Below, piece after piece: positions 4,220-25,528 of a stretch of DNA of 36,489 nt (position 1 is the first letter of the stretch; the number at the start of each line of letters is the position of its first letter). Source of the stretch: an uncultured bacterium (lineage in GTDB: Bacteria; Patescibacteriota; Minisyncoccia; Phycocordibacterales; UBA6065); assembly GCA_903842365.1 (NCBI GenBank), contig CAIMLU010000029.1, positions 1 through 36,489 on the forward strand, read 5' to 3'. Both the position numbers and the translations under genes were made by a program. Under the pieces are notes generated by a model, which searched no databases, was not told the origin of the DNA, and saw nothing but the letters and a program-made list of their open reading frames with translations.

Positions 4220-4641
4220 TGGTGCAATTTTTTTCTGATAATTTCGCATCTTTTCTAAATATAGGTCTTTTGATTGGTTGGCTTGCCACAACCATCAGTT
4301 GGTATATGGATGGGGTTCGTCAACAAAAACAAGCGTTAATTGATGTGAGGCGTAATACATATGGGAGACTTGTTGCTGCGTTAAAAGAACGAGGTAATTA
4401 TCCCGGTTTTGATTTTAATCGTCCTCTAGATGAGGTTGTTGAGAAGAAAAAAGAAGAAGAACGCAGAGTGTGGTCTGAAAAAAATAAAGTAGTGAAAGGG
4501 ATTGCTTCAGAGGCTCTGTTATTAGCGTCTGATAATGATTTGATTCAAAAACTCGAAGTTATTTCCGCAGATTTTTCTCTTCTTGACCATGCGGTGAAAT
4601 GTGAAGATTTATTAAGTTTACTGAAGAAGGATTTAAAATAA
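4219..4641 (+). CDS. Hypothetical membrane-anchored protein (140 aa)
   Basis: N-terminal hydrophobic segment ASFLNIGLLIGWLATTISWYM, then a charged helical region; translationally coupled (TAATG) to the upstream ORF. Confidence 0.55.
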   Translation: MVQFFSDNFASFLNIGLLIGWLATTISWYMDGVRQQKQALIDVRRNTYGRLVAALKERGNYPGFDFNRPLDEVVEKKKEEERRVWSEKNKVVKGIASEALLLASDNDLIQKLEVISADFSLLDHAVKCEDLLSLLKKDLK

Positions 4642-4662
4642 AAACTCAATCATCAGGTTTAT

Positions 4663-5217
4663 ATGGAGATAACAAAATTCCAGGCAGCGGAGTTTCAATT
4701 GATTACTGCGATTGATCTCTATTTTAAGGATAAGGACCCTGTTTCTGTTCATACCCTGGTACGATCAGCTCATGAAATTTTCAATTGTCTCTGTGAACAT
4801 AGTGGTCTGGAGAGGAGTGTTGTCGAACAAAGTGCTGCTGAATTCGTTAAACCAGAACTCAAGAAAGATTTTTTTAAGAAAATAAATGAAGCCAGGAACT
4901 TTTTTAAACATGCGGAAAATGACCCTGAGGCAACTCTGAGTTGGAACCCATATCTTTCAACCTTTTTTATCTGGGACGCCACTTGTCTTTATAGGCGACT
5001 TTGTCCTGGGGAGATGCCCTGTGAAATTCTTATTTTTTCAGCGTTCTTTAGAGTCCAGCACAGTGAGCTTTGGAAAGACAAATCACCCCTTGATTGCGAG
5101 ATACCAGGTGCAAAAGAAGAATTAAAAAACATAAGCAAAAGAGATGCTTATGATATTTTATTGAGTCAGTGTAAACACGGAGGCAAAGCATTACCTAATT
5201 TAACCTTTTTGTTATGA
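4663..5217 (+). CDS. HEPN-like protein (candidate ribonuclease/partner)
   Basis: 184 aa, helical; INEARNFFKHAENDP contains an R-N-x3-H (Rx4H) HEPN-type motif; 7 nt upstream of the Shedu-like gene. Confidence 0.5.
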   Translation: MEITKFQAAEFQLITAIDLYFKDKDPVSVHTLVRSAHEIFNCLCEHSGLERSVVEQSAAEFVKPELKKDFFKKINEARNFFKHAENDPEATLSWNPYLSTFFIWDATCLYRRLCPGEMPCEILIFSAFFRVQHSELWKDKSPLDCEIPGAKEELKNISKRDAYDILLSQCKHGGKALPNLTFLL

Positions 5218-5224
5218 TATTGAT

Positions 5225-6394
5225 ATGATTGATATATTGGTTATTGATAATAACCTCGTTTTAAGATACTCAACAGAAAATCCATGGGTTATTGATAGGT
5301 CGCAGATCACAGACATAATTCCTATCAAAAAAAACCTGTTCGTGTTCTCAAAACACGATATTTTGAGGAGTGATAATACTTACGGTGAAGAAGTTGATTT
5401 CATTTTAGGAAAACTAAATGACGCAGGGTACTTTTATATTGAAGGAAAAAAACTTGAAATTGAACACGATGTATATTTATATAAAGATATTAATATCTCA
5501 GACCGTTTTTTTATAGGGGTACGAAATACTAGTATTTTTAGAGAAATTAGTAGTGTGGTTACACAGGATATTTATATTGGAGGACATCACCCTGAAGCGA
5601 TACCTGGTGACGATTTTTTGTTAATGCTGAAAGATTTTCCAAACCCATATGAAGTTGATAAGTATATTAAAGATAGATTGTCTTCTGTTTTGGAGAACTA
5701 TTTTGATTCAGCTTCTCATGTTCGTGGAAAATATGAAGCCTACATGAATAAAAGGAAAAGTATCCAAGGTGAAAATCTGACGAATTTATTTAGAGAAAAT
5801 GAGGTTGTTAAATATGAGTCAATCTTGGAGAAACTTAGATTCATGCTTGCGAATGAGAAAAAGTACAATGAAAAGCAATGGCAGGTTGAAATACTTCAAA
5901 TTATTTTGTTGTTATATCCAAAATATATTTACTCTTTTAAGGAGGCACCTGTTTATGATTCTTATAGAAAGACAGAGCGCAAAATCGATTTTTTGTTAGT
6001 AGATCCCAATGGAAATGTTGACATTATTGAGATTAAAAGACCAATGGGTGAGAAAATAATAACAAAAACACAATATAGGGATAATTTTATACCACTGAGG
6101 GAATTGTCTGGAACTGTAATGCAAGTCGAGAAGTATGTGTATCATCTAAGCAAGTCAGGCCAAGATGGAGAAAATAAATTGACAAAAAAGTACAAAAATA
6201 AAATTCCTCCCGGTTTTAAAATTAAAATAACCAATCCAAGTGGAATAATTATTATGGGTAGGGATAATCTGCTTTCCAGTGAGCAGAAGGATGATTTTGA
6301 GGTCGTGAAGAGAAAATATCGTAATGTAATTGATATTATAACTTATGATGATCTTTTGAGGAGGTTGGGATCTATCATTGTTGCCTTGAAATAG
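5225..6394 (+). CDS. Shedu-like anti-phage nuclease (SduA, DUF4263 C-terminal domain)
   Basis: 389 aa; NEKQWQVEILQIILLLYPKY ... RKIDFLLVDPNGNVDIIEIKRPMGE ... RDNFIPLRELSGTVMQVEKYVYHL, a PD-(D/E)xK nuclease core (D...ExK) with the Shedu-type ELSG.xxQVEKY segment. Confidence 0.75.
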   Translation: MIDILVIDNNLVLRYSTENPWVIDRSQITDIIPIKKNLFVFSKHDILRSDNTYGEEVDFILGKLNDAGYFYIEGKKLEIEHDVYLYKDINISDRFFIGVRNTSIFREISSVVTQDIYIGGHHPEAIPGDDFLLMLKDFPNPYEVDKYIKDRLSSVLENYFDSASHVRGKYEAYMNKRKSIQGENLTNLFRENEVVKYESILEKLRFMLANEKKYNEKQWQVEILQIILLLYPKYIYSFKEAPVYDSYRKTERKIDFLLVDPNGNVDIIEIKRPMGEKIITKTQYRDNFIPLRELSGTVMQVEKYVYHLSKSGQDGENKLTKKYKNKIPPGFKIKITNPSGIIIMGRDNLLSSEQKDDFEVVKRKYRNVIDIITYDDLLRRLGSIIVALK

Positions 6395-6436: not shown

Positions 6437-7699
6437 TTAACTCAACTTAATTTCTTTATTACTTAAGACCAGCTTACTTTTTAAACAAACCAACAAATCT
6501 CTTTTCTCAAAAATACTTCCTTCTTTAAGTAAGTATTTTGCGTAATTGCGAATATCGATGTCTTTCACGGAATAGTCACGTTCCGTGTTTCCAAGAATTC
6601 CAACACTAAATCTCTTATGTCTCTCAATCTCAGCACTAAGTTTTTTCCTCAGTCCTGATTGGTTGAGGTCTATTTTATCCATCATTTCAGTAAGCTGGCT
6701 GATTAAGTCTTCTTCTTGGAGAAATACTTTCTTACAGTTCCTATCTTTAATTGCGGTACAAGAATAGTAAATATATTTCCTCACGGAACCATCCGCAAGT
6801 TTTTTGTACTTTTCCTGTGCTGTTATTCCTGATCCGCATAAACCACATGTCATCATTTTAGTGAAAGCGAACTCTTTCGGAGTTGCTTTTGCGGTTCTTC
6901 GATATACTAATAACCCTTGGACTTCATCAAATAATTCTTTGGAAATAATAGGGGTGTGTTTACCTTGATACCATTTGCCACTTTTCTTTGGATATTCAAA
7001 TACACCGTAATAGAAATGATTGTGAAGTATGCAGAATATGTTACTCATCGTGAGCGGTTTTCCACTACGTGCCGTCATCTTTAGTTCGTTATGAATCCAT
7101 AGGGAGACTTTCTTTCCGCTCCATCCTTCATAAGCAATCTTTTCGAACATTTGTTTGACTATCGGGGCTCGTATAGGGTCAGTGTGAACCACGCAGAGTT
7201 CATTAACATTTGGACTGTTTAAGTATCCTGTGGGCGCCTGTGCGGGCCACAGACCCATTTCACAGCGCGTTCGCAATCCTCGCTTCACATTCACGCTTTT
7301 GTTGTCATTCTCGAGTTTTGCTTGGGAACAGAGGATCATGAGGAGAAACTTATCACTTGGGTTATTCGTAAACTTTTGCCCGTACGTTCTAATCTCAACA
7401 AGTGCTTTTTGATCCATTAAATCTACTACTGAACCAAGGTCGCCGGCGTTGCGAGAGAGGCGATCAGGATTCCACGAAATGATGCCGTTAAACTTTCCTG
7501 AGCGTATATCTTCCAGTAGCTTTTTAAATACAGGTCGCTGTCCAGAATCTTTTGCTGAATGGGCTTCTCGGTAGATATCGGCGACTTCAATGTTGTCGCG
7601 TTTTGCGAGAGCGAGCATTTCATTTACCTGAGAATCAATCGACAGAATTTGTTTTTCTTCTTGCTCGGTACTCTTACGAGCATAGATGCAATACTTCAT
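6437..7699 (-). CDS. Large serine recombinase (resolvase N-terminus, recombinase domain, zinc ribbon)
   Basis: MKYCIYARKSTEQEEKQILSIDSQ...; SWNPDRLSRNAGDLGSVVDLMD; CGLCGSGITAQEK...YYSCTAIKDRNC. Track start 7795 is possible, but MKYCIYARKS is the usual N-terminus. Confidence 0.88.
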   Translation of the reverse strand: MKYCIYARKSTEQEEKQILSIDSQVNEMLALAKRDNIEVADIYREAHSAKDSGQRPVFKKLLEDIRSGKFNGIISWNPDRLSRNAGDLGSVVDLMDQKALVEIRTYGQKFTNNPSDKFLLMILCSQAKLENDNKSVNVKRGLRTRCEMGLWPAQAPTGYLNSPNVNELCVVHTDPIRAPIVKQMFEKIAYEGWSGKKVSLWIHNELKMTARSGKPLTMSNIFCILHNHFYYGVFEYPKKSGKWYQGKHTPIISKELFDEVQGLLVYRRTAKATPKEFAFTKMMTCGLCGSGITAQEKYKKLADGSVRKYIYYSCTAIKDRNCKKVFLQEEDLISQLTEMMDKIDLNQSGLRKKLSAEIERHKRFSVGILGNTERDYSVKDIDIRNYAKYLLKEGSIFEKRDLLVCLKSKLVLSNKEIKLS

Positions 7700-7889
7700 C
7701 TTTATTGCCGGTGCAATGGTTGATTGGGCCATCAAGGCGCTTGTTTGTATTTCCATGCATCCATTGATGACAGACCAACCAGGGGAGTAAAGCAAGGGAA
7801 GTTGGCAACGTGTTGGCAGCTGCTCTTAGCAAGACTAATGGTCTGCGTTAAGGTTGGACTGGTAGTGCATTTGGCGCTATCATGTTCCC

Positions 7890-8045
7890 TGACAGTAAAA
7901 AAGTAGCCTAAACCATCGAGAGATCGGTGGCATGGTGAAAGAAGTCGATCAAGAATAAAGAACCCATCATGGGGTTTGCTTGATCGCCGTGTCAGGAAAC
8001 TGGCACGTGGGGCTTCGGCTCCAACCCGTGGTGGGCTTTTTGTTT
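7890..8045 (+). ncRNA. Candidate structured RNA / 5' leader with consecutive hairpins
   Basis: TTGGAC (7854)-N18-TATCAT (7878); stems 7913-7930 (CCATCG/CGGTGG), 7946-7986 (CGATCAAG/CTTGATCG), 7988-8007 (CGTGTCAG-GAAA-CTGGCACG), 8008-8023 (TGGGGC-TTCG-GCTCCA), then gggcttttt. Confidence 0.45.
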
Positions 8046-12685: not shown

Positions 12686-13330
12686 ATGGTTTTAGATTAT
12701 ATAAAAGGTATTAAGGTTGATATAAACAATTTACCTATTGATAACCTTCAAGCTCTGGAATACTTGAGGGATGGTATCTTTCATTTGGCTGGAATAATCG
12801 AAACGAAAGAAGAAAGTCATAAAAAAGAGAGTGAGGTTGGTGTTAATGGTTTTGTTCCAGGAAAGAGTACGGTTTTTTATTGGAGTAATTCAAATCCAGG
12901 GCACAATCTCATTCTGAATCAATTTAATTGGTTTGCTGTTTCGTGTGTAAATTACATAAGAGTGGTTGGTTTGGTTGATATTATGAATAAAAATGGCTGG
13001 AAAAGTGCAGATATTAAAGACCATATCAAAGAGATTAAAGATCATTGTGATCAATATATTTCTGAAGTTGCATCGGAGTTGGTTTGGTGGAGGAATAAGA
13101 TATCAGCTCATCCAAGCGCTACAGACCCACGAAAGAAAGATAACCTTAGTTTGCTAGAGTTCTCTTTAATGAATCAACTGACTTTTGAATCACCTCACTA
13201 TTTTGTTGGTAGCCTCAATTGGTCTAATGGAGAGGGGTCATCTGATTCTAAAAGATGGTCGTTGGTGAAGGTTTTTAAGGAGAAACTAATTCCAAGATAT
13301 TGGCCAGATGTAAGGGTGGATAAAGCCTAG
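12686..13330 (+). CDS. Putative HEPN-like protein (214 aa)
   Basis: Helical; SELVWWRNKISAHPSATDP carries R-N-x4-H (Rx5H) in a HEPN-like context. Confidence 0.45.
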   Translation: MVLDYIKGIKVDINNLPIDNLQALEYLRDGIFHLAGIIETKEESHKKESEVGVNGFVPGKSTVFYWSNSNPGHNLILNQFNWFAVSCVNYIRVVGLVDIMNKNGWKSADIKDHIKEIKDHCDQYISEVASELVWWRNKISAHPSATDPRKKDNLSLLEFSLMNQLTFESPHYFVGSLNWSNGEGSSDSKRWSLVKVFKEKLIPRYWPDVRVDKA

Positions 13331-13356: not shown

Positions 13357-13386
13357 TTGACGTGAATTGTATGGGTATGGTATAAT
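13357..13386 (+). promoter_or_regulatory. Strong sigma70-type promoter
   Basis: TTGACG (13357-13362), 18-nt spacer, TGG-TATAAT extended -10 (13381-13386). Confidence 0.65.
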
Positions 13387-13391
13387 GGTAT

Positions 13392-13550
13392 TGTTCCTCA
13401 TAAATCTAAATACGAAACCAAGTCATCGGGGGTTCAACAACACATAGCATTTGAACCACATTAATTTATCACCCTCGATCCCGCATTTATCATCCAAGAT
13501 ATATCTATTTTTGGCATAAAAAGGCGAGATCGAAAGGTCTCGTCTTTTTG
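13392..13550 (+). ncRNA. Candidate small RNA or attenuator leader of the HEPN-TIR genes
   Basis: No ORF between promoter and terminator; nested stems ATCGGGGG (13425-13432)/CCCTCGAT (13472-13479) and GGTTCAA (13431-13437)/TTGAACC (13451-13457). Confidence 0.5.
13518..13550 (+). terminator. Intrinsic terminator with GAAA tetraloop
   Basis: AAAAAGGCGAGATC-gaaa-GGTCTCGTCTTTTT then gtttttg. Confidence 0.8.
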
Positions 13551-13592
13551 TTTTTGTACGAACATTATTCATTAGTTAAATAAGGTATAAAA

Positions 13593-14303
13593 ATGATTGA
13601 TTATTTAAAGAAGTTTAAAGACTCATTAGGAGATATTGATAAACTTGAACAAACACCCCAGATAGTGAGAGATATGGCTGTTGGTGTTTTGGAAGATATT
13701 TGCAAAGATGAAGCCGTTCAACGTACGGTTCGAATGAAGCTTGAGGGGCGTATTCAGGCTTTGAAGTCAATACACGAGAGTTCTATTGAAGATAATTTTA
13801 AAGTTATCTATTCCCAGATGTGTGTTTTGGCAGTTTCTAGCCTCGAGGCAATTCTTGAAGAGTATTTTGAGTATGCTCTAAATAGTTCTGCGAAGACTGA
13901 GGGTAAGTTGGTTAAAAAAATGGATGATTTAAAAATTACTCTCAAAGAGTTGGTTGAAAATGATTTAAATCTTGCTGGAAAATTTGGCTCTATTTTTCTA
14001 GAGAAGGCTAAGCTGAACTTTCAGGATTTAAAATCTATTAAAGATTCATTTTCGGATTATTTAGGGAAGAAAATTGATCTTGATGAGGATACAGAAAAAC
14101 TTATTTGTTTCTATCTTTTAGCGCGACATGTTTTGGTGCACAAAGGGGGTGTTGTTGATGATAAATTCATTTCAGCATCAACTCGTTATCTTAACGCAAA
14201 CACCAAAGGATATAAAAAGGGTAGTAAGATTATTTTTAATCCAGAAGACTGGATGAATATAAAAAAAGTATTTGTTAAGTTGGTTAACGAGGTTGTTAAA
14301 TAA
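13593..14303 (+). CDS. HEPN-domain protein (236 aa)
   Basis: FYLLARHVLVHKGGVVDDKFI fits the R-H-x3-H (Rx4H) + GGxVDxxF consensus of MAE_28990/RiboL-PSP-like HEPN proteins; helical throughout. Confidence 0.6.
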   Translation: MIDYLKKFKDSLGDIDKLEQTPQIVRDMAVGVLEDICKDEAVQRTVRMKLEGRIQALKSIHESSIEDNFKVIYSQMCVLAVSSLEAILEEYFEYALNSSAKTEGKLVKKMDDLKITLKELVENDLNLAGKFGSIFLEKAKLNFQDLKSIKDSFSDYLGKKIDLDEDTEKLICFYLLARHVLVHKGGVVDDKFISASTRYLNANTKGYKKGSKIIFNPEDWMNIKKVFVKLVNEVVK

Positions 14304-14321
14304 AAAAAAGAGAAATTAATT

Positions 14322-15236
14322 ATGAATCAAGATTTATTTATCTCCTATGCGTGGACTTCACCTGAACACCGTGAGTGGGTTAGGTTGTTTGCGAGTCAGC
14401 TTCATTTGCTTGGCTACAATATAAAGATTGACGAAACCGTTGATTATGGATCAAGCCTCAGTGGCTTCATGCGGGAAATTACCGATGCTAATCACGTTTT
14501 ATTGATTATCGACGAGAATTATACGGAACGCGTCAATACTAAACCAGAGTCAGGGGTGGGTATAGAGAACAAGTGGATTCGTGGTGTATTCAATGACAAA
14601 CCAGCTGGGTGGTTATCCGTTATTTTTGTCCGAAATCCTAAGTGTAAGATGCCTGATTGGTTAACTAATCACAATCCGAAAGGTTTTAACTTTAATTCCA
14701 ACCCTGATAAGAATGAGTTCCCTGGCACTACACAAATTGATGATGTTTGGCGATGGGTTGAGGGTTTACCGGCTGATAAAATAAATGCGGTGCCATTAGC
14801 TGAGGTTTGTAAGCGTGCTGCACGAGTTGAACGTGTTGATGCGCAGCGTGATCCTGCTAATTATACAAATCCAACTCTTAAAAATAGAGTTACGTTTCGG
14901 TATCGAGACCATCAATATTTTACGGTTGGTAATGGAGAGTACAAGTTTCAGATCAGTTTTAGTGGGGCAAACACTAATTGTGTTCATGTCTACACTGATG
15001 GTGGTCTTAAAGCACTAGGTCTTATTACTTCATCAAATTATAATCCAGAGACTGCTGAGTCTTTTCTTAGACCTGGGCGTGTTGTTACACCAGTTGTGGG
15101 TCAACGGGTAGTGCTTTTAAATCAGCATGGCACACTATGTATTATTACGATTGATGAAGTACAGTACGAGGTTAACACTGCTGAGGAATATATTCCTGGG
15201 CATGTAACATTTTCTTATGAGGTGTTAATGAATTAG
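14322..15236 (+). CDS. TIR/SEFIR-domain protein with C-terminal beta-rich domain
   Basis: 304 aa; N-terminal DLFISYAWTSPEHREWVRLFASQLHLLGYNIKIDETVDYGSSLSGFMREITDANHVLLIIDENYTERV; C-terminal ~120 aa of unknown family. Confidence 0.75.
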   Translation: MNQDLFISYAWTSPEHREWVRLFASQLHLLGYNIKIDETVDYGSSLSGFMREITDANHVLLIIDENYTERVNTKPESGVGIENKWIRGVFNDKPAGWLSVIFVRNPKCKMPDWLTNHNPKGFNFNSNPDKNEFPGTTQIDDVWRWVEGLPADKINAVPLAEVCKRAARVERVDAQRDPANYTNPTLKNRVTFRYRDHQYFTVGNGEYKFQISFSGANTNCVHVYTDGGLKALGLITSSNYNPETAESFLRPGRVVTPVVGQRVVLLNQHGTLCIITIDEVQYEVNTAEEYIPGHVTFSYEVLMN

Positions 15237-16789: not shown

Positions 16790-19700
16790 ATGGTTATGAT
16801 TTTTTCCAAGGAAAACACGCTTTCTGACGCTTTAATTCATCGTGCTGATGAACTGGGTAAGATCACCTCACTGTCTATGGATGAATCGGTTGCACAAAAC
16901 TGCGTTGTTGGACATCGCACTGCTTCGTCCGTGGTAATAGATCGTTTTCGTACGCTTGCAAAACAAGTTTCTCATTCTCGTTACATAAACCACGAAGTTG
17001 AGTCAATCCTCGATAATTTTTTTATCATCGAGACGACTGTTTTTGATATAAACACCGCATTCAAGAAGCGTGATTTCAAAAAATTTCCACTTATCACAAA
17101 AGCAAAAGGTGAACGATTTTTGCGTCTCTATTCGGTGCTTCGTGAGTTTGTTCAAGATACAAAGGGTAGGGTAGAAAAGACAGACCTCCTCACTTTTATA
17201 AACACGTATCAGCAGTGGAGCCCTTTTTCTATTCGTGAACTCAATGCGGTGCCGGTGATGCTTAAACTTATTCTTGTGGAGGATTTTGGCGAGCTCGTCT
17301 CAAATGCATGTTCTGTTATTGATGAATACAAGAAAGCTGAAGATGACTATGTTGCTATTACAAAAGCTTCTAAGCGTTCATCGTGGGACCCATCAAAAAT
17401 CACATTATCACTCGCAAAGAAATATGGTACGGTTCCTATTAATTTCGGACTTCATCTCATCGGCCGTCTGAATCAAGATGGCTCAAAAATGAGGCCTATT
17501 ATTAAATGGATTCGTCTCAATCTTGAAAAACAAGGGTTCGCAACTGATTCATTGTCATGGGTGGAAGAGGGGGTTCGTACAGAGCAGACGACCTTGATTT
17601 CTAATATCACTGAATCTCTTCACTGGCTAAATCAGGTACGGTGGGATGCTGTGGCGGAAAAGGTGAATATAGTTGATGGGGTGTTGTCAGGTGATCCATC
17701 TGGGGTTTTCAGCTCTCTCAACCTCGAAACAAAAAATGAATATCGAAACGTGGTTGTACGCTTGGCCGAACAGGTTTCAATTCATGAGGCGGAAATTGCT
17801 AGGGTTGCGGTTCAACTTGCCTCACACAACAAACAATCAAATGACCCATTGTCCTCAGTAAAACGACACGTTGGTTACTATTTAGTTGATGTCGCAGGGC
17901 GACAAATGCTTGAACGGGAGGTACATTACCGTCCCACTAATAGTGAGCGACTCTACCGGCTCATTCTTAATCATCCATCAAGGTCGTATTTTGGATTGCT
18001 ATTAAGTATTTCTCTGGGACTCTCTGCCGGCACACTCTCTTTACTGGGCTTTCCAACCCAGATGTCTTTAGTGTGGGTGGTGTGGGTACTTGCCACTTTT
18101 TTGATTAATCTCGAGATTGCTATTCATGTTTCAAATATACTCGTCACACGGGTATTACCTGTTCGCAAACTTCCTCGATTGAATCTTGAGCATGATTTAG
18201 GTGAAAATCACAGGACATTTGTGGTGGTTCCTTCAATGCTCAGATCTGAAAAATCAATACGTGACCTTGTATCTAAACTTGAGACTCGTTATGTAGGTAA
18301 TCAACAACAAGGTCTCTATTACGCTCTACTTCTCGATTTTCCCGAAGCACACAGTGAGACGTTGGATACTGATGCGTCCCTTATACAGATAACCAAAGAG
18401 GCAATTGCTTCACTCAACGCAAAGTATGCACAAGGTCTGGAAAAACGATTTTTCGCTCTTATTAGGAAGAGGATTTGGAATGAATCTGAACAAGTCTTTA
18501 TGGCTTGGGAGAGAAAGAGGGGAAAGCTCCGTGAGTTTAATGAATTAATGAGAGGGAAGGATACTACATACATTATCACGGACGATGTTGAGAGTCTTTC
18601 ACGTATACGTTATGTAATCACGCTTGATGAGGACACCGAGCTCCCACATGATGCTGCGCGTAGGTTGGTTGGTGCAATTGCTCATCCTTTGAATGCGCCC
18701 GTAATAAATACAAATGGAAAAGTTATTCGTGGTTACGGTATTATACAGCCCCGTGTAAGTGTCAGGCTTTCAACTGCAACCCGATCTGTTTTTTCACGTC
18801 TCTATTCAGTTGTTTCGGGTATTGATTCATACTCGGGACCCGTATCAGACGTGTACCAGGATTTGTTTGACAATGCTCTCTTTTTTGGAAAAGGGGTGTA
18901 TGACATTGATGCGGTTGAATCGTCGATGAAAGGCAAGATTCCAGATAATACAGTCCTTTCCCATGATCTCCTTGAAGGTTTATATACTCGAGTTGGCTTT
19001 GCGAGTGATATTGTATTGTTTGATGGTTTCCCAAAGTTTTACCACGAGTTTATTGTTAGACATGAGCGTTGGGTTCGTGGCGATTGGCAAATAATTGGGT
19101 GGCTCTCGGGTAAATTTAGACAAGGTAAATACGGTGTGCCTGTTGAACGGCTTGCTTTTGTTGATCGTTTTAAAATATTTGATAATTTAAGACGAAGTTT
19201 GGTGCCTGTTGCTGCGCTCTGTTCCCTTGCGATTGGTTATTTAACAGATATTTCCCTTGAAGTAACAACGGGTTTTATCGTACTTGCCCTTATTGCACCA
19301 TACGCATTACCGTTCATTGTTTCAATGGCTCATAAAGGTAGCGCGCCATTTCGCCTACGTATTCGCAAATGGGTTGATGATGTATTTGTTCTCGTTATTC
19401 ACAGTGCGTTGAGGATTTTCTTTTTACTTGAACAAGCACTTGTTTCTGTTATTGCGATTACTAAAACATTATGGCGTCTCTATGTTACTCGCAAGAAACT
19501 ACTTCAGTGGAAGATATCCGAAGATGTGGGCGCTAAACTTGTCGGTCGTTTTTACGAATACTACAAAGTTATGCGATTGAGTGTTTTGTTAGCCATTACC
19601 ACTTTCGTAGTTGTCTTAATACGAGATGGAAATGGTGTTATGGTTGCGTGGTCACTCGTGTGGCTTGTTGCACCTTTTATTGCATACAGTATTAGTATCC

Positions 19701-22700
19701 AGACAGATATAAAGGCTAAACTTGGCAAGCAAGGCATTTCGTTCGTGCGTGGAATGGCGTACAGAAATGCTCTCTTCTTTTTAGACAACGCAAAAAGGGA
19801 AACTAACTGGCTCATACCCGATCACGTACAGGAACGCCCTCGCGTTATTGGTGAAGATCGCAAGATGACTTCACCGACCAATATGGGAATGCATATCTCA
19901 AGCCTCATTGCGGCTCATGAGTTGGGTTACCTTTCGACTAATCGCTATGCCGATAGGATTGATAGTATGTTCAAAAGTCTTTCTAGGCTTGAACGTTGTA
20001 AGGGGCATTTTCTTAATTGGTACGATGTTGAAAAACTTGAGGCAATTCAACCAAAGTATGTTTCGAGTGTTGATAGTGCAAATTTGCTCCTAGCATTCAT
20101 TGCCGCGGAGCAATCATATCTTCGTATGGGCTCAAAGCCACTTGTAAGCCATGAAATGGGCAGGGGTGTTGCTGATGCTTTGCGTGAATTTTCACGCGAT
20201 ATCAGTATGTTCAAAAACGTCGTTCCAAAGACAGTTGCAAAAGATGTGGTGTCTTTGCAGAAAGTGTTGAAAGATATTCTTAAAGAAACGGCGACGCTGT
20301 CACAGCTTATGCCTCAAGATTACGTGAACAAGCTCACCATACTTCACAAGCGAATGAGTCGCATTGTGCATATAACGAAAGAGATTGTTGCGAATGACCC
20401 AGGACCTGCTCTTGTCTTTCATCTGAGCTCTGCTCAATCTGCAATGAGTGTGATCGAAGACCAAATGCTCTCACTTCAGTCACTTTTGCCTTATATACAT
20501 CACTCAGATCATTCCGCTGCACTCTATGCGACACATGATTCTGCGGTCCTTAATCTGGTCCACTTGATTGAAAAGGAAGCTGTCTCGGGCTTCACGTTAG
20601 ACTTGATTGCAGATTCAATACCCACTTCAATTGCGAGACTGAGTTTCCTTGAGACTCTCGATGTTTCGAGTCTTTCACGGGAGTCAAAACGTTTTCTTGC
20701 TGAGTGGTATAGGCGTATTGTTTCGGATGTTGATTCAGGTGCTGAAAACGCAAGACGTATACGCAATGTGTTTGCTCGAGTTGCTCGTGAATCTAATGCT
20801 TATGTTAAAGAGGCCGATTTTGGTTTTCTCTATAACAAAGAGAAGGAATTGTTCCATATAGGATTCAACGCCTCGTTCAACCGCATGGATGCCGCTTGCT
20901 ACAACTTCATGGCTTCTGAATCGAATGCTGTCAGTTTTGTCGCTATTTTAAAAAATCAGGCCCCTCAAAAGCACTGGTTCTATTTGAGCAGAAAATTGGT
21001 TCGTTCTGGTGGTGACGTATCTTTGGTTTCATGGGGAGGATCTCTCTTTGAGTATCTCACATCACTCATTTTTTTCTCGACTCACAAAGAAAGCCTTCTA
21101 GGTGCAACTGCGCGGGCTGCTATCAATGTGCACAGAAAGCATGCGCGCAAGCATAGAATGCTCTGGGGTATGGGTGAGTCAGCATATGCAAGCTTTGACA
21201 ATGCAAAGAGGTATCAATATCAAGTGTTCGGTAGTAATGAAATAGGTCTCAAGAGAAACCTCGGTGATTTCCTGGTTGTTGCTCCATATGTGAGCGCCCT
21301 GGCGTTGCCTATTGTGCCGAAATTAGCTTATCGCAATCTATGCCGGTTTGTTAACAATAAAATGTGTGGAAAGTATGGTTTCTTTGATGCACTTGATTAT
21401 TCTGATGGACAAGGAGGACGCGCTAAACAACCTGTTCCTGTTGAAATTTATTATGCACATCACCAGGGTTTTGCGTTGTGTTCAATGTACAACTCGATTG
21501 CTAATAATTCGATGCATCGGCTGTTTCATCTAAATCCTGCCGTTCGCTCACTCGACACCTTATTTGAGGAGAGGATGCCTGACACACCCGCAGCAGAGAC
21601 GTTGTCATTTCCTGTGTCGCTCACGCCATCGCAGCTCTCACCAGTGCGTGATACGGGCATGGAGAGCAAGAGGCTTATCATAGTGAAATCAGCATTTCCT
21701 CAATATTCATTTATTGCGAACCGGGATTGTGCTGTACGTATTTCTGAGCAAGGCTCTTGCACGAGCTCATATCGGGGAATAGCTCTCACTCGACCAAAAG
21801 CAGATGCACATAGCGGCAGTGAAGGTACTTCGATGTATATACGCACCCACAACAGTTCTGAGTTCTTTTCGGTATTACCCCATTCATCATTGTCGGATAG
21901 TAGGCGTCGGGTGACCTTCCAGGAAAATAAAGTTGAGTTTTTCGAAGACCATAAACAATTTGAAACATCTCTATCAATTTCCGTTGATGATAAAGCTCCT
22001 GTGATTATCCGTGAATTGTATGTCACAAATAAAAGCCAAGAGACGCTCTCCTTTGATGTGGTTACTTATGGTGAAGTATCTCTTGCATATGAAAACCAGG
22101 AACTCCACCATCCGCATTACCAACATATACTCGTAGAGTCAGAGGATAATCAAGCGGGGACAGGGGTTATATTCTCTCGACCCCACCCACAAGATAGATC
22201 AAAGAAGATTTATTTTACACACTACCTTGCACAATCAAGTTTCTCTCGTAGGAAAGTTTCATTTACCTGTGCCCGGAATGATGCATTTTCACAATATGGC
22301 GTCTTTAATCCGTTTCTTGTGTTTGATGCCAACAGGAAACCTAATCCAAAAGTACCACTTGATCCTGCATTTGTTGTTGGGGCCAAAATCTCGCTCAAGC
22401 CAGGAGAACATTCACACCTCTTTTTCGTTGAGATAGTTTCAGAATCAAGAAATGAACTTGAAAAATTACTGCAAAAATATGCATCACCACGTCTCGCTCG
22501 TCGTATTTCATCGCGTGCAATTGAACACAGCGTTCGCCTGACAGGCGATCTGGGTGTATCTCAAGACACGGCGGTTGTATTCCAAAACATAGCCTCCATT
22601 GTCATCTCGGGAATCAGAAAAAGTTTCGAGAGTAGTGTTCACGGAGTAAAACCGGTTGTTCACTCATTGTGGAACCTTGGTGTATCGGGCGATCACCCCA

Positions 22701-25528
22701 TTGCGCTGTTTATCGTATATGACATTGGTGATATTCCAACGGTTCGCCAAATAATTCAGTGTTTTTCTTATTGGAAGACAAAAGGTATTGAAATTGATGT
22801 GGTTATCCTCAACAATCAGCCAACCAGTTATATGAAAGTGTTTGATGATGAAATCGATTTCTTGGTGAGACAAGCAAAACAAAATAGTGCAGGCTGGACA
22901 AAATCTACGCTCTACCAAGTAAAAGGTGATTTGGCGTCCGAGGAAGATAAAAAAGTTCTCATAGGTTCTGCGCGCTTTGTTGTGGATATAAAAAAAGGAA
23001 CACTTACCGACGCGGTTCGTCTGTGCTGTAAAAATATGCCAGGTGCAGAGGCGGGTAAGCGTCTTAAGCTAAAAAGCAAAACAGTAAATGCATCACATGC
23101 CGAGGTTGAGGTGATTGAAGTACAAAAAAATCTCGACCACCATAACTCATGGGGTGGTTTTGATAGGGTAACAGGTCAATATGTTATGTCCGTTTCTTCT
23201 CACAATATGCCTCCAAAGCCATGGAATCATATTATTGCTAACGAGCACTATGGTGCGATATTAGGCATATCAGGAGCCACTTATTCGTGGTCAGAAGATA
23301 GTTATGACAACCGAATGACCTCGTTCTCGAATGATTCATTGCAATACACAAGCGGGGAGACTGTGTATATTCGTGACCGTGCATGTGGTACGGCATGGAA
23401 CCCGACGCCGTTCCCGATAAAAACAGGTGCCCCATTTTCTGTGATTTATGGATTTGGGTATGCGGAATACTGCTCTGAATATAATGGTGTTAAATCAAAA
23501 TTTACAACCTTTATACCTGAAAATGCTTCGGTAAAAATTTCTCTACTCGAACTTTCCAACACCACAAAAGAAAGACAAGACTTAACCATTTTCTCGCATT
23601 CAGTTCCAGTGATGGGTATGCTTCGTAGTCATCTTGTTGACCACATTCAATTTGATTTTGACGAGTATGCTCGTGCGCTCTTTTTCAGAAATGGTTTCAG
23701 AAATCAATTTGAGGGTTCTGTGGGATTTGTATCCTTTGGTGATGCACCAGGGGTTATATCATATACCACTGATACAAAAGAATTCTTCGGTAATCACGGT
23801 TCTTATGAAAACCCAATAGCAATGAGACTTGCATCGCTCTCAAATTCTACCAAGTCGCATGGGGATAGTTCTATTGTTCTCGCTCTCGAAGTTCATCTTG
23901 AACCAGGTGAATCGAAGACAATTCCCGTAATCATTGGTGAAGCAAAAAATCGAAGTGAAGCAGAACGCATTGCGACACACTGGTCCACACCCCACGTCTC
24001 TATTGCTGCCCTTGATCCAGTTATTAACTCATGGAAAAAGAAGTTGGGTGCCGTAAAAGTCTCTACGGGCGATACATCGGTTGATTACCTTATGAATGGG
24101 TGGCTCCTCTATCAAGCTCAAACTTCAAGGATTTTGGCGAAGACAGGATATTACCAACCCTCGGGTGCTTATGGATTCAGAGATCAACTACAAGACTCAT
24201 TGTCTCTACTCTGGTCGAACCCTCAGTTTGTGAAATCGTTCATTATGAAGGCCTGTTCAAAACAGTTCGTTGAGGGAGATCCTCTTACTTGGTGGCATGA
24301 ACACAATATGTTTGGATTGAGAACAGTGCTCTCGGACCATCAGTTGTGGCTCGCCTATGTTGCTGGTGAATATGTTCGACACACTGGAGATACTGGTATC
24401 TTTGATATTCAGGCACCGTTCCTTTCTGGTCCCACTTTGGACTTTAGCGGGCACGGTGAATGGGCGGGAATACCACATGTCGCATCCGAGGGCGCTTCTG
24501 TGTACGAACATATTATGCGTGCTATTGAGAAGAGTCTTGTGTTTGGTGAACATGATTTACCTCTCATAGGTTATTCTGATTGGAATGATGGTTTGAGTTC
24601 GGTTGGACGCAATGGTAAAGGTGAGAGTGTTTGGTCTGCGTGGTTTATACTCTCTATCATTGATTCAATACTCCCTTATGTTATTGCGCGTGGCGATACT
24701 GATAGAGCGACCTCTTTACGTAGTGCACAAAAAACGATTGAAAAAGGCCTAGAGCAGTTTGCTTGGGATGGTCGATGGTATCGTCGAGCGTTCTTTGATA
24801 ACGGAACGCCACTCGGTTCACGAAAACTGAAAGAGTTTAGGATTGATTCAATTGCACAATCGTGGTCCGTGATCAGCAGATGTGGTGACAAAGAACATAC
24901 CCTCACTGCGCAAAAATCAATGGTAAAACACCTTCTCAAGAAGGATTATTTTGCCTTGATTGACCCGGCGCTTTCTTCGGGTGCTGTACGTCCTGGATAC
25001 ATTCAGGATTATCCTCCAGGTATTCGTGAAAACGGAGCGCAATACAACCATGCGGCACTCTGGGCTATTCAATCACTTGCGATAATTGGTGATATTGAGA
25101 ACGCTTCAAAGATTCTTGATTTAGTTAACCCTATCAAACGATCCGAAGGCCGTGAGAAAGCACAGTGGTATGGCGTTGAGCCATATGTTGTTGCCTCGGA
25201 TATTTATGGGGGTGAACGGGCGGGTCAAGGTGGATGGACGTGGTACACCGGATCTGCGGGCGTTATGTATCGCACTGTTATTGATAACTTGTTTGGTGTC
25301 ACACGTCGTGGAAACATTATTGAACTCTCACCTCATTTACCACTCTCGTGGAATAATCCAAAAATAACAATCCTATGCGGGTCATCTGTCTACGATATTA
25401 TCTTTCAAACTGATAAGGGCAGAACGACGATTGAACACTGTGAACTTGATGGTGTGGCGATTGATTATCTCTCGATTCCTTTTGTTGACGATGGTTGTAA
25501 GCACATAATAAAAGCCGCGCTCATCTAG
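16790..25528 (+). CDS. ndvB: Giant cyclic beta-1,2-glucan synthase-like protein (NdvB/ChvB-like; GT84 + GH94 modules)
   Basis: 2912 aa; RVWNESEQVFMAWERKRGKLREFN-type region, RYVITLDEDTELP, SDVYQDLFDNALFFGKGVYDIDA, LSHDLLEGLYTR, RHERWVRGDWQIIGWLSG; C-terminal GH94-like SGAYGFRDQLQDSLSLLW, HEHNMFGLRTVLSDHQLWLAY, GYSDWNDGLSSVGRNGKGESVW. Confidence 0.88.
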   Translation: MVMIFSKENTLSDALIHRADELGKITSLSMDESVAQNCVVGHRTASSVVIDRFRTLAKQVSHSRYINHEVESILDNFFIIETTVFDINTAFKKRDFKKFPLITKAKGERFLRLYSVLREFVQDTKGRVEKTDLLTFINTYQQWSPFSIRELNAVPVMLKLILVEDFGELVSNACSVIDEYKKAEDDYVAITKASKRSSWDPSKITLSLAKKYGTVPINFGLHLIGRLNQDGSKMRPIIKWIRLNLEKQGFATDSLSWVEEGVRTEQTTLISNITESLHWLNQVRWDAVAEKVNIVDGVLSGDPSGVFSSLNLETKNEYRNVVVRLAEQVSIHEAEIARVAVQLASHNKQSNDPLSSVKRHVGYYLVDVAGRQMLEREVHYRPTNSERLYRLILNHPSRSYFGLLLSISLGLSAGTLSLLGFPTQMSLVWVVWVLATFLINLEIAIHVSNILVTRVLPVRKLPRLNLEHDLGENHRTFVVVPSMLRSEKSIRDLVSKLETRYVGNQQQGLYYALLLDFPEAHSETLDTDASLIQITKEAIASLNAKYAQGLEKRFFALIRKRIWNESEQVFMAWERKRGKLREFNELMRGKDTTYIITDDVESLSRIRYVITLDEDTELPHDAARRLVGAIAHPLNAPVINTNGKVIRGYGIIQPRVSVRLSTATRSVFSRLYSVVSGIDSYSGPVSDVYQDLFDNALFFGKGVYDIDAVESSMKGKIPDNTVLSHDLLEGLYTRVGFASDIVLFDGFPKFYHEFIVRHERWVRGDWQIIGWLSGKFRQGKYGVPVERLAFVDRFKIFDNLRRSLVPVAALCSLAIGYLTDISLEVTTGFIVLALIAPYALPFIVSMAHKGSAPFRLRIRKWVDDVFVLVIHSALRIFFLLEQALVSVIAITKTLWRLYVTRKKLLQWKISEDVGAKLVGRFYEYYKVMRLSVLLAITTFVVVLIRDGNGVMVAWSLVWLVAPFIAYSISIQTDIKAKLGKQGISFVRGMAYRNALFFLDNAKRETNWLIPDHVQERPRVIGEDRKMTSPTNMGMHISSLIAAHELGYLSTNRYADRIDSMFKSLSRLERCKGHFLNWYDVEKLEAIQPKYVSSVDSANLLLAFIAAEQSYLRMGSKPLVSHEMGRGVADALREFSRDISMFKNVVPKTVAKDVVSLQKVLKDILKETATLSQLMPQDYVNKLTILHKRMSRIVHITKEIVANDPGPALVFHLSSAQSAMSVIEDQMLSLQSLLPYIHHSDHSAALYATHDSAVLNLVHLIEKEAVSGFTLDLIADSIPTSIARLSFLETLDVSSLSRESKRFLAEWYRRIVSDVDSGAENARRIRNVFARVARESNAYVKEADFGFLYNKEKELFHIGFNASFNRMDAACYNFMASESNAVSFVAILKNQAPQKHWFYLSRKLVRSGGDVSLVSWGGSLFEYLTSLIFFSTHKESLLGATARAAINVHRKHARKHRMLWGMGESAYASFDNAKRYQYQVFGSNEIGLKRNLGDFLVVAPYVSALALPIVPKLAYRNLCRFVNNKMCGKYGFFDALDYSDGQGGRAKQPVPVEIYYAHHQGFALCSMYNSIANNSMHRLFHLNPAVRSLDTLFEERMPDTPAAETLSFPVSLTPSQLSPVRDTGMESKRLIIVKSAFPQYSFIANRDCAVRISEQGSCTSSYRGIALTRPKADAHSGSEGTSMYIRTHNSSEFFSVLPHSSLSDSRRRVTFQENKVEFFEDHKQFETSLSISVDDKAPVIIRELYVTNKSQETLSFDVVTYGEVSLAYENQELHHPHYQHILVESEDNQAGTGVIFSRPHPQDRSKKIYFTHYLAQSSFSRRKVSFTCARNDAFSQYGVFNPFLVFDANRKPNPKVPLDPAFVVGAKISLKPGEHSHLFFVEIVSESRNELEKLLQKYASPRLARRISSRAIEHSVRLTGDLGVSQDTAVVFQNIASIVISGIRKSFESSVHGVKPVVHSLWNLGVSGDHPIALFIVYDIGDIPTVRQIIQCFSYWKTKGIEIDVVILNNQPTSYMKVFDDEIDFLVRQAKQNSAGWTKSTLYQVKGDLASEEDKKVLIGSARFVVDIKKGTLTDAVRLCCKNMPGAEAGKRLKLKSKTVNASHAEVEVIEVQKNLDHHNSWGGFDRVTGQYVMSVSSHNMPPKPWNHIIANEHYGAILGISGATYSWSEDSYDNRMTSFSNDSLQYTSGETVYIRDRACGTAWNPTPFPIKTGAPFSVIYGFGYAEYCSEYNGVKSKFTTFIPENASVKISLLELSNTTKERQDLTIFSHSVPVMGMLRSHLVDHIQFDFDEYARALFFRNGFRNQFEGSVGFVSFGDAPGVISYTTDTKEFFGNHGSYENPIAMRLASLSNSTKSHGDSSIVLALEVHLEPGESKTIPVIIGEAKNRSEAERIATHWSTPHVSIAALDPVINSWKKKLGAVKVSTGDTSVDYLMNGWLLYQAQTSRILAKTGYYQPSGAYGFRDQLQDSLSLLWSNPQFVKSFIMKACSKQFVEGDPLTWWHEHNMFGLRTVLSDHQLWLAYVAGEYVRHTGDTGIFDIQAPFLSGPTLDFSGHGEWAGIPHVASEGASVYEHIMRAIEKSLVFGEHDLPLIGYSDWNDGLSSVGRNGKGESVWSAWFILSIIDSILPYVIARGDTDRATSLRSAQKTIEKGLEQFAWDGRWYRRAFFDNGTPLGSRKLKEFRIDSIAQSWSVISRCGDKEHTLTAQKSMVKHLLKKDYFALIDPALSSGAVRPGYIQDYPPGIRENGAQYNHAALWAIQSLAIIGDIENASKILDLVNPIKRSEGREKAQWYGVEPYVVASDIYGGERAGQGGWTWYTGSAGVMYRTVIDNLFGVTRRGNIIELSPHLPLSWNNPKITILCGSSVYDIIFQTDKGRTTIEHCELDGVAIDYLSIPFVDDGCKHIIKAALI

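Follow-up and report, generated by a model that had tools for sequence, protein, structure and literature searches.

A compact bSEFIR-type TIR gene and a neighbouring probable HEPN gene beside a mobile element in a Patescibacterium

In a 36,489-nucleotide contig of an uncultured Patescibacterium, the whole of which is called the window here, a gene encoding a TIR/SEFIR protein lies directly downstream of a gene encoding a probable HEPN protein. Judging from its sequence, the TIR/SEFIR gene adds a compact new member to the bSEFIR kind already known and is most likely a single-gene NAD+-depleting system. The HEPN gene is probably a chance neighbour within the island, acting on its own as a metal-free RNase in toxicity or defence. 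Taking the locus as a whole, we consider it fairly probable that the TIR/SEFIR gene is cargo of a mobile element and by itself provides abortive-infection defence of the bSEFIR kind, with the HEPN gene independent of it. We found no evidence for a new two-gene HEPN-TIR system; the locus observation is real but mostly of known kind.

Layout of the locus and its surroundings

The features of the locus, and those of the window that bear on its context, are as follows.

13357..13386, + strand: sigma-70-like extended -10 promoter (TTGACG, 18-nt spacer, TATAAT, TG before the -10), 11/12 consensus positions
13390..13558, + strand: non-coding leader or possible small RNA, promoter-bounded, ending in a strong terminator hairpin; fold z -3.5, 16-pair stem
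13593..14303, + strand: probable HEPN-superfamily protein, 236 aa; motif R178-H-V-L-V-H183-K-G-G-V-V-D189, with R, H and D kept in distant relatives
14322..15236, + strand: TIR/SEFIR protein, 304 aa, compact bSEFIR-type subfamily; invariant E82 in SGVGxE, beta-rich C-terminal domain at about residues 185-302
5225-6394, + strand: Shedu SduA gene, C-terminal domain PF14082 (Pfam, 6.3e-36)
6437-7795, minus strand: serine recombinase
7905-8023, + strand: LOOT RNA (RF03000)

The HEPN and TIR/SEFIR genes are two open reading frames on a common strand. Both were found where the initial annotation had placed them, and the gap from stop to start, given there as 19 nt, measured 18 nt. The strong extended -10 promoter and the leader ending in a terminator were likewise present as described. 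Between 12600 and 16400, the promoter at 13357-13386 scored highest of 9 promoter-like matches; shuffled sequences gave 13 +/- 3.5 matches of any quality. The number of matches is thus not above chance, and this promoter stands out by score only.

A likely defence context had also been proposed for the locus, and the Shedu gene and the serine recombinase within the window agree with it. The window further holds a TerS-like HTH gene and a ParB-methylase gene. Homologues of the recombinase, TerS-like and ParB-methylase genes lie close together in two other genomes (G001 and G007) and on a second contig of the home genome; stretches from G001, G006 and G007 also contain the LOOT RNA. None of the fetched stretches contained a HEPN or TIR homologue, and the simplest reading is therefore that the HEPN and TIR/SEFIR genes are accessory cargo next to a mobile element of this type.

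Several further observations were made in these surroundings. The LOOT RNA occurs near serine-recombinase genes in the home genome and in three other genomes of the family (L080, 5627-5749; L082, 5859-5973; L083, 7238-7357), in two of these three also near TerS-like and ParB-methylase genes, and it may be a component of the recombinase/TerS-like/ParB-methylase elements. Directly upstream of the Shedu SduA gene, a small gene (4663-5217, + strand) carries an RNFFKH motif (Rx4H, HEPN-like). A 214-aa protein encoded just upstream of the promoter (12686-13330, + strand) contains WWRNKISAHPSATDPRKKDN, a HEPN-like R-x5-H motif, and has no credible family match. Downstream, the gene at 16790-25528 (+ strand) encodes a cyclic beta-glucan synthase-like protein in which glycosyl hydrolase 94 and putative glucoamylase domains were recognised; at 2912 aa it is very large for an 813-kb genome.

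The TIR/SEFIR protein and its relatives

The 304-aa protein matched TIR_2 of Pfam (4.9e-8), with SEFIR just short of the cut-off, and bSEFIR of PADLOC (2.4e-39, 134 bits), residues 1-243 aligning with positions 35-256 of the 412-position model. Its best sequence relatives in the PDB were the prokaryotic SEFIR domain structures 5y8e and 5y8f (7.9e-9 for 5y8f). An AlphaFold model built with 19 relatives reached a mean pLDDT of 84, and a fold search with it against the PDB returned 5y8e at the top, followed by SPARTA TIR-APAZ and SARM1/TIR-1 chains. Residues 185-302 or so were modelled mostly as beta structure at a pLDDT of about 90. These results bear out both the TIR/SEFIR domain and the beta-rich C-terminal domain that had been recognised from the letters.

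Among 19 aligned members, F6, S8, Y9, W11, D37, G78, V79, G80 and E82 are invariant in the N-terminal part, and P184, F192, G203, F209, D226, R253, L265, N267 and G270 in the C-terminal part. E82 of the SGVGxE stretch lines up by sequence with GVGxE of the SEFIR structures, and would be the TIR catalytic glutamate, equivalent to that of SARM1-type enzymes. The C-terminal domain, of about 120 residues, has no Pfam match; searched alone against plasmids, it turned up in no different architecture. It is plausible, and we think likely, that this domain is the sensor.

bSEFIR is a single-gene anti-phage system (PADLOC PDLC03957) and corresponds to the SEFIR that PMC12926258 cites from Millman et al. 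2022. SEFIR is classed among the abortive systems that act by depleting NAD+, and its protection against phages was narrow when it was tried in Streptococcus thermophilus (PMC12322248). Like bSEFIR, the gene in the window encodes an N-terminal SEFIR/TIR_2 domain, with the conserved glutamate in 19/19 aligned members, and is mobile-element cargo; that it is a single gene with no conserved partner is drawn from genomic inference only. Unlike bSEFIR, the protein is only 304 aa long, its similarity stops before the C-terminal third of the model, and it bears the beta-rich C-terminal domain. L003, a canonical bSEFIR relative of about 480 aa, could be aligned with it over residues 2-86 only. Given this and the partial coverage of the bSEFIR model, the C-terminal half, and with it the thing sensed, may differ from those of canonical bSEFIR.

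In the proposed mechanism, the C-terminal domain would sense infection or drive oligomerisation. The TIR domain would thereby be activated to hydrolyse NAD+, and the infected cell would cease to grow. The HEPN gene would be co-transcribed by its position within the island and would be no obligatory partner.

As in Thoeris and SPARTA, the protein has a TIR NADase-type domain, and SPARTA TIR-APAZ chains were among its best fold matches; over the whole length the superposition was poor (TM about 0.33). According to Pfam scans of the neighbouring genes, neither a ThsA-like gene (Thoeris) nor an Argonaute gene (SPARTA) lies beside the TIR/SEFIR gene. Kinship with SPARTA or with NAD kinases, considered on the basis of the fold search, was rejected with whole-length TM values of about 0.2-0.37 and no Argonaute neighbour.

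A first scan of genome contigs with the single TIR protein sequence gave no relative. Employing an alignment with three plasmid proteins (40-45% identity), we found 16 genome loci and 4 viral contigs, which with the 3 plasmid records make 23 full-length relatives of 40-71% identity; one of the viral contigs (L031) and one of the genome loci (L016) are near-identical. The genome loci belong to Alcanivorax, a Patescibacteria metagenome-assembled genome (L013), Mucilaginibacter, Pseudomonas fontis, Proteus cibi and eleven actinobacterial genomes. The subfamily of about 305 aa thus occurs in Patescibacteria, Gammaproteobacteria, Bacteroidota and Actinobacteria, and on plasmids and viral contigs, and all 19 aligned members match PADLOC bSEFIR. 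In the phylogenetic tree, the window protein joins L013 (about 70% identical) and Mucilaginibacter with support of 94/96, and the Actinomycetota form one group. The spread over several phyla fits horizontal transfer, of which the tree alone is no proof. In one viral contig (L029) the TIR gene lies between a terminase-small-like open reading frame and the terminase large-subunit gene, and in another (L028) near the Zot gene of a filamentous phage; a serine-recombinase-like gene adjoins the TIR gene in L013 and L014.

Patescibacteria, which have small genomes, are thus shown to carry a compact bSEFIR subfamily that also travels on phages and plasmids. In the searched sample such genes are rare: of 384 genomes in the window's class, the bSEFIR model matched 4, the home genome included, and two of the others are marginal.

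The leader RNA and the neighbourhood of the two families

The terminator at 13516-13551 consists of the 16-pair stem, a 4-nt loop and a T-tract, and ends 36-40 nt before the HEPN start codon. The leader unit of about 160 nt folds better than its shuffled versions (0/200 shuffles as good), an excess that is probably owed largely to the terminator. The leader matched no Rfam family at gathering score. Matches to STnc370 and STnc50 were below that score and covered the 3' part holding the terminator, and a search for a tRNA remnant found none. The home genome yielded no convincing second copy, and neither did seven family genomes or the records of phages and plasmids; other matches in the searched genomes were short fragments of 15-43 bases.

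That a folded RNA, flanked by a promoter and a terminator of its own, immediately precedes a probable HEPN gene recalls the arrangement of AbiF and type III-like systems. In AbiF, a non-coding RNA associated with the toxin binds it directly and so neutralises it (PMC12373285). The promoter-leader-terminator unit could accordingly be read as encoding a small RNA antitoxin, which would bind the HEPN protein and keep it inactive, with the TIR/SEFIR gene merely downstream; the strength of the promoter, the folding of the RNA and the position of the terminator just before the HEPN start all speak for this. Against it, neither the RNA nor the HEPN protein showed detectable sequence relation to AbiF, the likeness being one of layout only. 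The HEPN protein has no credible Pfam match, Abi_2 (the AbiF family) included, no relative of the RNA was found upstream of HEPN or TIR relatives, and the unit may be nothing more than a terminator that serves the genes upstream or an unrelated sRNA. We regard an RNA antitoxin as unlikely; even so, the HEPN gene and the RNA unit form a testable candidate for an RNA-controlled toxin.

The initial annotation had proposed an undescribed two-effector or sensor-effector module, and had named beforehand a recurring neighbourhood of the two families as its test. The 18-nt spacing suggests co-expression, as expected of a functional pair, and so counts against the single-gene reading; the common strand and the common upstream promoter point the same way. 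Such a pair would be a genuine two-gene system in which the TIR product or the loss of NAD+ activates the HEPN RNase, or in which one protein restrains the other until infection. Using phmmer against all open reading frames of the fetched loci, however, we found no homologue of the window HEPN beside any of the 23 TIR relatives, and none anywhere in 11 TIR-bearing genomes at E<=0.001 (one match had an E of 0.2). Conversely, a TIR neighbour was seen beside 0 of 17 HEPN relatives. The patescibacterial L013, the TIR gene of which is so similar to that of the window, has no HEPN gene alongside. The genes flanking the TIR relatives vary between loci, with no shared neighbour seen.

Two loci have HEPN genes of other kinds nearby. 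In Pseudomonas fontis (L015), an AbiV-type HEPN gene (4337-4912, 1.5e-29) ends 88 nt before the TIR start, and HEPN-annotated genes lie a few kb from the TIR copy of a Rhodococcus plasmid; both cases could be cited for a two-gene system. AbiV is, however, a HEPN family distinct from that of the window, and the P. fontis case, one of more than 20 loci, fits the general clustering of defence genes. The neighbourhood test thus failed at every locus examined, and a joint system of HEPN and TIR proteins appears improbable to us. Nor can the TIR gene be called undescribed, as its product matches the known bSEFIR family and occurs elsewhere without the window HEPN. A single-gene bSEFIR-type defence beside an independent HEPN gene remains the preferred explanation.

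The probable HEPN protein

The 236-aa protein gave no credible match in Pfam, NCBIfam, PADLOC or PHROGs, and no close relative in 380 genomes of the phylum, viral contigs, phages or plasmids. Among viral contigs, a search for the codon pattern of RHxxxHxxGxVD returned 10 matches, 9 of them with a fitting open reading frame, and none was a HEPN relative. Distant matches came from four genomes, two belonging to the phylum of Mucilaginibacter and two to that of Pseudomonas. A profile was made of the window protein, three of these matches and a Sinorhizobium plasmid protein; run against 596 genomes from those two phyla, it gave 18 matches, three being the profile's own members. In 17 of the 18, these members included and L073 being the exception, R-[HND]-x3-H is followed six residues later by D or N at the same place, in a G-[VIL]-[VIA]-[DN]-type stretch.

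Anantharaman et al. described the HEPN active site as Rx4-6H in which the R is followed by N, D or H (PMC3710099). The window protein has this arrangement, with R-x4-H, a polar residue (H) after the R, and D six residues past the motif His. As in the HEPN superfamily, its relatives are fused to other domains: Zn ribbons, a CHC2 zinc finger and Schlafen AlbA_2. The nearest Pfam hint is RiboL-PSP-HEPN (PF18735): L069, a relative with an N-terminal AlbA_2 domain, weakly matched HEPN_RiboL-PSP over the motif region (E 0.0016). Unlike the established HEPN families, the window protein itself falls below every Pfam cut-off, and its prediction as HEPN is by motif. The Rx4H motif on which the label was based has thus been borne out by conservation, and the protein's own match to a HEPN family model is absent. 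Because the RHVLVH motif is present and is kept in 17 relatives, one of which weakly matches a HEPN family, we consider the protein a probable HEPN RNase.

It could instead be an unrelated helical protein with a motif that is HEPN-like by coincidence. The lack of family matches would agree with this, as would the uninformative structure model, which was computed from the single sequence, is all-helical and has a pLDDT of 43.5, too poor for fold assignment. The retention of the motif and the adjoining stretch in 17 relatives, the identity of the residue after the R and the HEPN_RiboL-PSP match of the AlbA_2-fused relative make such a coincidence quite doubtful. Least of all do we favour a three-part RNA-HEPN-TIR operon, in which a HEPN toxin with an upstream RNA antitoxin captured a bSEFIR NADase as second effector in this Patescibacterium; we hold it to be very improbable.

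One of the HEPN relatives (L066, 1483-2511) is fused to a DnaG-type CHC2 zinc finger (PF01807, 1.2e-29) and is encoded downstream of a trypsin-like protease gene.
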